Assembly: GCA_016180645.1 (NCBI GenBank)
Contig: JACPAV010000006.1
Span: 1-64,000 of the forward strand
Length of the DNA: 64,000 nt
Direction: 5' to 3'
DNA from: Nitrospirota bacterium
Lineage (GTDB): Bacteria; JACPQY01
A program made the position numbers and the translations under genes. A model generated the notes under the pieces. It was not told the origin of the DNA. It ran no database searches and was given only the letters and a program-made list of their open reading frames with translations. Every line of letters starts with the position of its first letter. The first letter of the stretch is position 1. Below are positions 9,350 through 12,066 of this stretch, one piece after another.

Positions 9350-10951
9350 GTGCGACTTTGCAATGCGGCAAGAGCGTGGGCGGCCACGGCATTTGTCGTT
9401 GGCTCTCTTGGCGCCCGCGCGGCCCAGGCGCACCAGCCCGGGGTCTCGCTCGGCGAGGTACGGGTCGACCTCGGCGCCTTGGAGTGGACCGTGTGGATCT
9501 CCTACGAGGACTGGACTCGGGCCTTCTTCCTCCAGGGGAACATGCCGGTGATCCGGTCGGAGAGCGAGCTTCTCGCGGCGCGGCCGGAGATCGAAAGGGC
9601 GCTGATCGAATTGCTCTCCGTTGAGCACGCCGGCCACGCATGCGAGGGAGTAGCGGAGGACACACGCGAGGCCATCCGGCAAGACCATCCATTCGCCCAA
9701 ACCCGCCTCCGTTTCACCTGCGGACAGGAGTGGGAGTCGCTGACCCTTCACGCTCCGCTCGCCCGATACTTCCTCCCTCAGCACCGCATGTTCGTTACCC
9801 TTCACGGGGTGAAGGGGACCTCCACGCTCCTTTTCGGACCCGGACAGGAAGACATTACCGTGCGGGACTTTGCCGCAAAGATCGCCATTTGGCCGCAGGT
9901 GCCGAAATTCATCCGCCTTGGGATCGAACATATCTTCACGGGCTACGATCACGTCCTCTTTCTCATCGGGCTGATCCTCGGCGCCGGAAGGCTTCGCTCG
10001 CTGATCACCATCGTGACATCGTTCACCGTAGCGCATACGGCCACGTTGGCCGCGGCGACGCTCGGTTATGTTTCGCTCCCACCGCGATTCGTGGAACCCC
10101 TTATCGCACTTTCGATTGTCTACATCGCGGTCGAAAATCTCTGGAGGGAGCCGCGGAAGCGCTTGCCCCACGATGCGGCCATCCGTGGCCGCGAACAGCG
10201 GTCGCAAGCGCCTCCCCCATCCTGGGGGAAGCGGTGGATGGTCACCTTCGGATTCGGATTGATCCATGGTCTTGGCTTTTCGAGCATCCTGCTCAGCATG
10301 AATATCCCGCGCTCCCTGATCGGCGCCGGACTCCTCAGTTTCAATTTAGGCGTGGAAATCGGCCAAGTCGCCATTGTTGCCGTCGTTTACCCGCTCCTCC
10401 ACACGATCGCCCGGTTCTCCTGGCAGCCGAAGCTTCTCCGCGTTGCATCGGCCGGCATTCTCGTTGCGGGCTCCATCTGGCTCATGGAGCGAACCGCTTT
10501 CGCTCACCCCGAGGCAACCTCCTATGCCCGCATCGAAATCACGGACAAGACCGTGCGGATCGAATCATGGATCGGGTCGTGGGAGTGGCAACCGTACCTG
10601 CCGCGAGAGATGGACCCCACGAATCGTCGTTTGAGCGAGAGGGAACTGGTTGCCGGCCGCAGCGACGTGGATCGCCTGTTCTCAGAAACCATTTTTGTAA
10701 AATCAGCCGGTCAGTACTGCCCCCCGAAAGTGGAGGCCCTCAAGCAGCTCGATATGGGCGGGCACAACTACCTGGCCTGCACGCTTGTGTACACTTGCAG
10801 GCGGCCGCTCGCTGATGTCAGGTTGGACGTCCGACTGCCTCGCAAGTTCGGAGGGGGCCATCAAATGATCGCCTCAATCGCCAAGGGCAAGGCGAAGGAG
10901 CGAGTCGTGTTCACTTCGTCCAAAGAGGTTTGGACTCTTAGCCCCGAGTGA
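9350..10951 (+). CDS. HupE/UreJ-like membrane protein with flanking extracytoplasmic domains
   Basis: 533 residues from GTG 9350; signal peptide to ARAAQA then HQP. A soluble domain of about 140 residues precedes the six- or seven-helix HupE/UreJ_2 core, with IEHIFTGYDHVLFLIGL, TSFTVAHTATL, FGLIHGLGF and FNLGVEIGQ, the histidine-rich helices thought to move metal ions such as nickel or cobalt. A second soluble domain (from AHPEATSYARIEI, about residue 390) follows the last helix and looks like a diverged copy of the first. Only 21 bp separate it from the divergent TRAP-type gene. Metal transport is the family expectation, not proven here. Confidence 0.85.
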   Translation: MRLCNAARAWAATAFVVGSLGARAAQAHQPGVSLGEVRVDLGALEWTVWISYEDWTRAFFLQGNMPVIRSESELLAARPEIERALIELLSVEHAGHACEGVAEDTREAIRQDHPFAQTRLRFTCGQEWESLTLHAPLARYFLPQHRMFVTLHGVKGTSTLLFGPGQEDITVRDFAAKIAIWPQVPKFIRLGIEHIFTGYDHVLFLIGLILGAGRLRSLITIVTSFTVAHTATLAAATLGYVSLPPRFVEPLIALSIVYIAVENLWREPRKRLPHDAAIRGREQRSQAPPPSWGKRWMVTFGFGLIHGLGFSSILLSMNIPRSLIGAGLLSFNLGVEIGQVAIVAVVYPLLHTIARFSWQPKLLRVASAGILVAGSIWLMERTAFAHPEATSYARIEITDKTVRIESWIGSWEWQPYLPREMDPTNRRLSERELVAGRSDVDRLFSETIFVKSAGQYCPPKVEALKQLDMGGHNYLACTLVYTCRRPLADVRLDVRLPRKFGGGHQMIASIAKGKAKERVVFTSSKEVWTLSPE

Positions 10952-10964: not shown

Positions 10965-11549
10965 ATGAAAGAGTCGCCCGGATTCACGAAGAAGGGGTAC
11001 ACCTTGGGAGAATTTGTCGGCGCCTTCTCCGCGCTCAGGCCGGCCGCGGGATCCATCATCCGGCTGTATGCCGGACCGAACAAGTTGGAGACCCGTCTCC
11101 GAGAGCGCATCATGCTCAGCGTGGCGCTCACCAACGATTGCCGGCACTGAATTTTCGCCCACAAGCGCCTGGGACAGGCGGCAGGAATGGATTCAGAGAG
11201 TGTCGTCCGGGGTGAGAAGGCAGAGGATGCGAGAACACGTGCGGCGGTGGATTACGCCCTCGGCCTGATTCTGGGCGTTGAGAAACAGCCCGACCTCTCT
11301 TCACACTTTACAGAGGCTCACGCTCAACAGATTCGGGCTGCCGCTTTGCTTCTCAATTTCACCAACCGGGCGGGGAACACGGTGGATCGCTGGCTGTTCC
11401 GGCTCTGGTACCCTGGGAAGGTGAAGGAGAGTTCGTTCCTGGCCGACATGCTGATCGCTCTGCTCTGGGCATCCGTCGCGCTTCCCGAAGGGCTGTGGAT
11501 TCTCCTGCGCGTTCCGCGGTACCGCCGGGCGAAGCCGGCCGCCGCTTGA
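10965..11549 (+). CDS. AhpD-like / carboxymuconolactone decarboxylase-family selenoprotein (UGA = Sec62)
   Basis: One reading frame of 194 codons with a single internal TGA at 11148-11150. Upstream it reads RERIMLSVALTNDCRH and downstream IFAHKRLGQAAGMDSES, which together make the classic CMD/AhpD active site with CxxU (C59, Sec62) and the conserved histidine four residues on (H66) in place of CxxCxxxH. Homology-like sequence continues to the end (LLLNFTNRAGNTVDRWLF is the family's C-terminal helix). A SECIS-type hairpin lies just downstream (11166-11180). Expected role: thiol/selenol peroxidase-like redox enzyme. The alternative is a pseudogene with one nonsense mutation, but the TGA position and hairpin argue for recoding. 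selA, selB and selC are not in this window. Confidence 0.85.
11166..11180 (+). promoter_or_regulatory. Bacterial SECIS-like hairpin
   Basis: CGCCTG (11166-11171), loop GGA, CAGGCG (11175-11180): six perfect G-C-rich pairs. The stem starts 15 bases after the UGA and the loop lies 21 bases after it. A G occupies the first two loop positions, as in the bacterial SECIS consensus recognised by SelB. Confidence 0.75.
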
Positions 11550-11589: not shown

Positions 11590-12066
11590 ATGGAAAAGAG
11601 GTACCCGAGAATTCAGGTCGAAGAGGATCCGGCGAAGTACAATTTCAAAACCAGCCTGCGCGTTCGTTTCGCAGAAACCGACGCTCAAGGCGTCGTTTAT
11701 AACTCCAATTACCTCGTCTACTTCGAGGTGGCGCGTGTTGAGTATTTTCGGAATCTGTTTGGCGAGAACTGGTTCGACGGGCAGCGTCCGTACAATGTGA
11801 CCGTCGGCGAGGCCGGCTGCCGATTCAAGTCCCCGGCCCGGTTCGATCAGGTTCTGGATCTCCACGTGCGCATCGGCGAGATGCGAAACGCCAGCTATGT
11901 GTTCGAGTATCTGATCCGCAACGCCCGAACGGGAGAAGCGGTTGCCGTCGGCTACACCACTTTAGTGACGCTCTCAAAGGACAGCGGCCGCGCCATCCGC
12001 GTTTCGGAGGAAGTGCGTCAGAAGATCATGACATTCGAGAAAGGACACGTCCGGACCGTCGAATAG
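11590..12066 (+). CDS. Acyl-CoA thioesterase, hotdog fold (YbgC/4HBT type)
   Basis: 158 residues. The signature VRFAETDAQGVVYNSNYLVY (residues about 25-44) matches the 4-hydroxybenzoyl-CoA thioesterase family; D31 is the expected catalytic aspartate. A single hotdog domain at normal family length. It would hydrolyse an acyl-CoA to free acid and CoA in the cytoplasm. No partner gene is obvious: it follows the selenoprotein by 40 bases on the same strand and may be cotranscribed. Substrate unknown. Confidence 0.88.
   Translation: MEKRYPRIQVEEDPAKYNFKTSLRVRFAETDAQGVVYNSNYLVYFEVARVEYFRNLFGENWFDGQRPYNVTVGEAGCRFKSPARFDQVLDLHVRIGEMRNASYVFEYLIRNARTGEAVAVGYTTLVTLSKDSGRAIRVSEEVRQKIMTFEKGHVRTVE

Follow-up and report, generated by a model that had tools for sequence, protein, structure and literature searches.

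A probable bacterial SECIS hairpin in a CMD/AhpD-like selenoprotein gene of a Nitrospirota bacterium

The stretch of Nitrospirota DNA analysed here, 64,000 nucleotides long and referred to as the window, contains a CMD/AhpD-like gene with an in-frame TGA, and a short hairpin follows this TGA within the coding sequence (Table 1). The locus raises two questions: whether the UGA is read as selenocysteine (Sec) and, if it is, whether the hairpin is the bacterial SECIS element that goes with it.

Table 1. Positions of the gene, the hairpin and the neighbouring features in the window
Feature	Position	Strand	Remark
Upstream neighbour, HupE/UreJ-like membrane protein	9350..10951	+	Ends 13 nt 5′ of the selenoprotein start
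CMD/AhpD-like selenoprotein gene, 194 aa via internal TGA	10965..11549	+	PF02627, TIGR00778
TGC, Cys59, partner of Sec62 in CxxU (NDCRHU)	11139..11141	+	Cys invariant in the alignment
Possible lower helix, 5′ arm, UGA included	11147..11154	+	Pairs with 11189-11196; seen in the 56-nt fold
In-frame TGA, predicted Sec62	11148..11150	+	Cys in the nearest homologues
Probable SECIS apical hairpin	11166..11180	+	CGCCTG/GGA/CAGGCG
GGA apical triloop (Gly69 codon)	11172..11174	+	21 nt 3′ of the TGA; selD triloop identical, at 20 nt
Possible lower helix, 3′ arm	11189..11196	+	Pairs with 11147-11154
Terminal stop TGA	11547-11549	+	End of the CMD/AhpD-like gene
Downstream neighbour, YbgC/FadM-family acyl-CoA thioesterase	11590..12066	+	Context

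The gene and the decoding of its UGA

The reading frame is intact across the TGA, with 93 open codons before it and 132 after it. The encoded protein scores 26.6 bits with the Pfam CMD model PF02627 (cut-off 23) and 35.9 bits with the NCBIfam AhpD core model TIGR00778 (cut-off 27.8). Its motif, N-D-C59-R-H-U62-I-F-A-H66, has the CxxC(U)xxxH pattern, in which Sec stands where CxxC has its second Cys. Homologues with Cys align on both sides of the TGA at about 30-34% identity (L016, L017 and L019), L016 being 34% identical across residues 7-192, and the column of the TGA is a conserved Cys in the homologues. The AlphaFold2 model, made with eight sequences, is all-helical with a mean pLDDT of 82.9, and its best PDB matches in Foldseek are AhpD/CMD structures with a probability of 1.00. 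Judged by their spacing, E47, C59, H61, U62 and H66 would presumably correspond to the catalytic residues of mycobacterial AhpD (Glu, Cys, His, Cys and His, respectively). A PDB search with the protein sequence gives no match and a search of phages gives no homologues, while a plasmid search yields only distant CMD proteins.

The genome also encodes components for decoding UGA as Sec. It has a tRNA-Sec with a UCA anticodon (73.3 bits), a SelB (369.8 bits with TIGR00475) that contains both SelB-wing_2 and the SECIS-binding SelB-wing_3 (PF09107), and a SelD (357 bits) with one in-frame TGA of its own, in the motif CAGU. SelA is not recognised in the stretches read around selB and selD, and the PF00384 molybdopterin proteins of this genome have no in-frame TGA within the matched domain. 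A second tRNA-Cys (L002 1501-1592; G000:C22:24197-24287), with anticodon GCA, U73 and a long variable arm, just passes the tRNA-Sec model, at 47.2 bits with a cut-off of 47, and is similar to the selC*-type tRNA-Cys of an earlier study (PMC7609411).

If the UGA were instead a true stop or a lesion, the locus would be either a pseudogene or a pair of genes, translation would restart at ATG 11187, and the hairpin would have formed by chance. An ORF with this ATG does exist (11187-11549), and a hairpin this good is expected by chance at a level of about 5%, but the TGA falls precisely where the CxxC redox motif has its second Cys, the homology runs unbroken across it, homologues from two other phyla with Sec-type selD have UGA at the identical position, and tRNA-Sec, SelB and SelD are all present, so that this explanation is very improbable. 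Still less credence can be given to decoding of the UGA as Cys or another residue by an unusual tRNA. Even though the second tRNA-Cys is tRNA-Sec-like and selC*-type tRNAs of such a kind are known (PMC7609411), its GCA anticodon reads UGC and UGU, and a UCA anticodon is seen in just one tRNA, which is clearly tRNA-Sec. The UGA is taken below as a Sec codon.

Geometry, folding and chance level of the hairpin

The original prediction described a CGCCTG/CAGGCG stem that begins 15 bases after the UGA, with a GGA loop 21 bases away that carries G at its first two positions. Exactly this hairpin is present, with a folding energy of -7.9 kcal/mol. The arms 11166-11171 and 11175-11180 form six pairs, C66-G80, G67-C79, C68-G78, C69-G77, T70-A76 and G71-C75 (last two digits of 111xx), all of which are Watson-Crick, and the gaps from the TGA to the stem and to the loop measure 15 nt and 21 nt. 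The interval first proposed for the element, 11151-11186, contains the hairpin, but the hairpin proper is narrower. The codons under it, CGC CTG GGA CAG GCG, read Arg-Leu-Gly-Gln-Ala, as had also been anticipated. Since these residues belong to the conserved active-site helix of the protein, the stretch is under both protein and RNA constraint.

The published model of the bacterial SECIS has a loop of 3-9 nt on a stem of 4-16 bp, G in the first two loop positions, a UGA-loop spacing of 16-37 nt and an energy of -7.5 kcal/mol or lower (PMC13188914). Scoring with such a model had been suggested as a check, and the window hairpin lies within every one of these limits: a 3-nt loop sits on 6 Watson-Crick pairs, the loop is GGA, the spacing is 21 nt and the energy of -7.9 kcal/mol is marginally past its limit. 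A search of Rfam gives no match over threshold.

Taken alone, the hairpin is just mildly unusual, barely more than would be expected by chance, and the statistics by themselves make a weak case. The long ORFs of the window offer 15,704 in-frame codon positions, and after 5.1% of these comes a hairpin that obeys the SECIS rules and equals or exceeds this one in stability, a value that becomes 3.5% when Cys codons only are considered (n=173). The whole published rule is passed by 5.9% of in-frame window positions. When the gene is recoded synonymously, with the protein fixed and the codon usage of the window, the 6-bp stem is kept at its exact place in 5.1% of recodings, and some hairpin of equal stability arises in 13.8%. 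Because about 5% of positions or recodings do as well, the match to the consensus has little weight alone. The exact design, a GGA triloop on at least 6 bp at a spacing of 18-23, is found at 8 of the 15,704 positions and in 1.1% of the synonymous recodings.

A competing fold of lower energy had been named at the outset as a possible objection. Such a fold is absent from most folding windows, in which the 11166-11180 hairpin is the main form, but it is preferred by 1.6-4.7 kcal/mol in some of them, for example 11160-11220. In a 56-nt fold (-18.2 kcal/mol, z -2.5) the apical hairpin is accompanied by a possible lower helix that includes the UGA itself. This lower helix disappears in longer folding contexts and is left out of the claimed element.

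Hairpins of selD and of the homologues

The case is made strong by three comparisons: with the genome's own selD, with 60 UGA-containing homologues and with the Cys homologues. In selD, the second selenoprotein gene identified in this genome, the hairpin GTCCAGG-GGA-CCTGGAC (L036 1531-1563) has a 7-bp stem and the same GGA triloop, and the distance of its loop from the TGA, 20 nt, is nearly that in the CMD gene. A scan of 6,644 TGA trinucleotides on both strands of more than 200 kb of the same genome finds nine sites where a GGA triloop caps a stem of no fewer than 6 bp at a spacing of 16-26; the CMD and selD sites, alone among the nine, have more than 90 open codons on both sides, a result to be read as a test of specificity rather than a blind discovery, since both loci were included in the scan and are the source of the pattern. 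A covariance model built from the two hairpins of this genome (R1) gives no candidates and also misses its two training sites, so that its negative outcome carries no information.

Homologues with UGA occur in two more genomes, from other phyla, one of which (G041) has two copies. In the phylum of the other (G276), represented by 18 genomes, UGA-containing CMD/AhpD genes are numerous, with 2-18 family matches per genome, most of which have one in-frame TGA each. When 60 of these genes (L060-L089 and L104-L133) are aligned in frame and without gaps after the UGA, they have a helix at codons 6-10, with a loop that starts 21 nt past the UGA and is GGNC in nearly all of them. The two column pairs with the highest mutual information of all are pairs within this helix. 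Codon 7 base 3 and codon 9 base 2 form T-A in 31 sequences, C-G in 25 and another combination in 1 (56/57 Watson-Crick), while codon 6 base 2 and codon 10 base 3 form C-G in 33, A-T in 10, G-C in 6 and other combinations in 8 (49/57 Watson-Crick). Across 32 diverged sequences, pairing over the whole helix amounts to 82.8% compared with 69.6% after shuffling, and 0 of 500 shuffles are as high, although the sequences are related and such counts are not probabilities. Slid along the same 32 sequences, the helix is 58.3% paired or less. Retention of pairing, the check put forward at the outset for close relatives, is observed in these 60 UGA homologues on the codons that carry the window hairpin.

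The second base of codon 9, which sets Gln versus Arg, covaries with the synonymous third base of the Leu codon, a link that seems hard to account for by codon usage. To judge from these alignments, the choice between Gln and Arg in the CMD genes of this phylum appears to be made by RNA structure, through the SECIS pairing. The window hairpin sits on the identical codons, 6-10, with its loop at the identical 21 nt, but in a triloop register. A covariance model (R2) built on the tetraloop hairpins of the homologues fails to recover the window hairpin, so a common sequence or register is not claimed. The two G041 paralogues have the hairpins CTCCCG-GTC-CGGGAG and CTCCCA-GTT-TGGGAG, with the loop at 17 nt instead of 21, and differ from each other in the closing pair, which is G-C in one copy and A-T in the other.

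The sixty genes and L027 have the motif CxxUxxH instead of the AhpD pattern CxxC(U)xxxH, so that the active-site His in this subfamily is one residue closer to Sec. A Gly at +8 was considered as a footprint of the SECIS and rejected, since the Cys-type AhpD homologues L018, L021 and L026 have Gly too.

In L016 and L017, which have Cys at the site of the UGA, nothing there is below -2.9 kcal/mol in stability. Their source genomes, G289 and G151, which carry the nearest Cys forms, have no SelD match over the cut-off, and a TGA-containing SelD over the cut-off is found in the genomes with the UGA form (the window's own, G041 and G276). The Cys homologues L019 and L025 do form hairpins, of about -6 kcal/mol and 27 nt away, which serve as a reminder of the background.

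These comparisons also bear on whether the UGA is Sec but the functional SECIS is another or a larger structure, for example one with the lower helix or a shifted hairpin, the 6-bp stem being partly a by-product of the GC-rich codons for Arg-Leu-Gly-Gln-Ala. Such a structure would fit the energy and z-score of the 56-nt fold, the 17-nt spacing in both G041 paralogues and the approximately 5% chance level of the hairpin alone. It is nevertheless improbable, as the lower helix is lost in longer contexts, selD repeats the triloop and the spacing, the position agrees with the covarying helix of the 60 homologues, and stability resides in the apical stem, the portion that the published model describes (PMC13188914).

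No UGA orthologue of the window gene is found in 386 sampled genomes, and the claim of covariation therefore covers the distant homologues and not the gene's own lineage. Two scans of genome contigs for relatives give none in the first and one distant Lokiarchaeota locus in the second. The sole other genome of the same family that was examined (G001, 84% complete) has neither selD nor an orthologue of the CMD gene, pointing to a patchy distribution of the Sec trait in this family.

Proposed function and comparison with known systems

A bacterial SECIS accords with all that is seen of the gene, of the decoding machinery and of the hairpin, and we consider it very likely that the hairpin at 11166-11180 is the SECIS element of this CMD/AhpD-like selenoprotein gene. 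With the UGA in the ribosomal A site, the hairpin would stand at the mRNA entry, where SelB, loaded with Sec-tRNA-Sec(UCA) and GTP, would use its C-terminal winged helix to bind the GGA loop and the upper stem. SelB would then deliver selenocysteine at the UGA in vivo. The predicted product is an AhpD/CMD-type protein of 194 residues whose redox pair is Cys59-x-x-Sec62 and which may have a thiol/selenol peroxidase-type activity. A more tentative proposal, about which we are rather doubtful, is that the hairpin design of this genome, a GC-rich stem capped by a GGA triloop at 20-21 nt from the UGA, might be a genome-specific class of SECIS fixed by SelB, and that SECIS pairing might shape the sequence of CMD selenoproteins.

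Gene type and signal are both of known kinds, found here in a poorly sampled lineage. They add a selenoprotein gene and the decoding of UGA as Sec to a lineage in which one other genome of the same family has been examined. A standard gene caller would truncate the protein at the UGA or begin it at ATG 11187. The comparison of the 60 homologues makes an RNA signal within a coding region testable by covariation, and it places the SECIS on identical active-site codons in far-removed members of the family.

Knowledge of CMD-like and AhpD-like CxxU selenoproteins goes back to the Sargasso Sea survey (PMC1088965), and a review lists the AhpD-type models NF041047 and TIGR01926 (PMC13188914). The window protein is similar to these selenoproteins in its domain, in the position of Sec at the second Cys and in having a SECIS just past the UGA (PMC1088965, PMC13188914). 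Its distinctive features are its length of 194 residues with a long C-terminal helix and its identity of only about 30% to any homologue found. It scores under the cut-offs of both listed models, with 14.6 bits for the GSU3128-family (seleno)protein model NF041047 (cut-off 110 bits) and 11.9 bits for the peroxidase-related enzyme model TIGR01926 (cut-off 81.8 bits), and is a member of neither family.

The window hairpin has all the features of the bacterial SECIS consensus (3 nt, 6 bp, GG, 21 nt, -7.9 kcal/mol), but it is a minimal form, a GGA triloop like that of the genome's own selD, with an energy barely past the limit (PMC13188914). It shares codons 6-10 and the 21-nt loop position with the tetraloop SECIS of the CMD genes in the phylum of G276, and differs from it in register, that loop being a GGNC tetraloop. 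The SECIS of E. coli fdhF is a stem-loop soon after the UGA, with G at the start of its loop, and is bound by the last winged helix of SelB. The window hairpin is likewise a stem-loop after the UGA with a loop that begins with G, although the loop itself is different.
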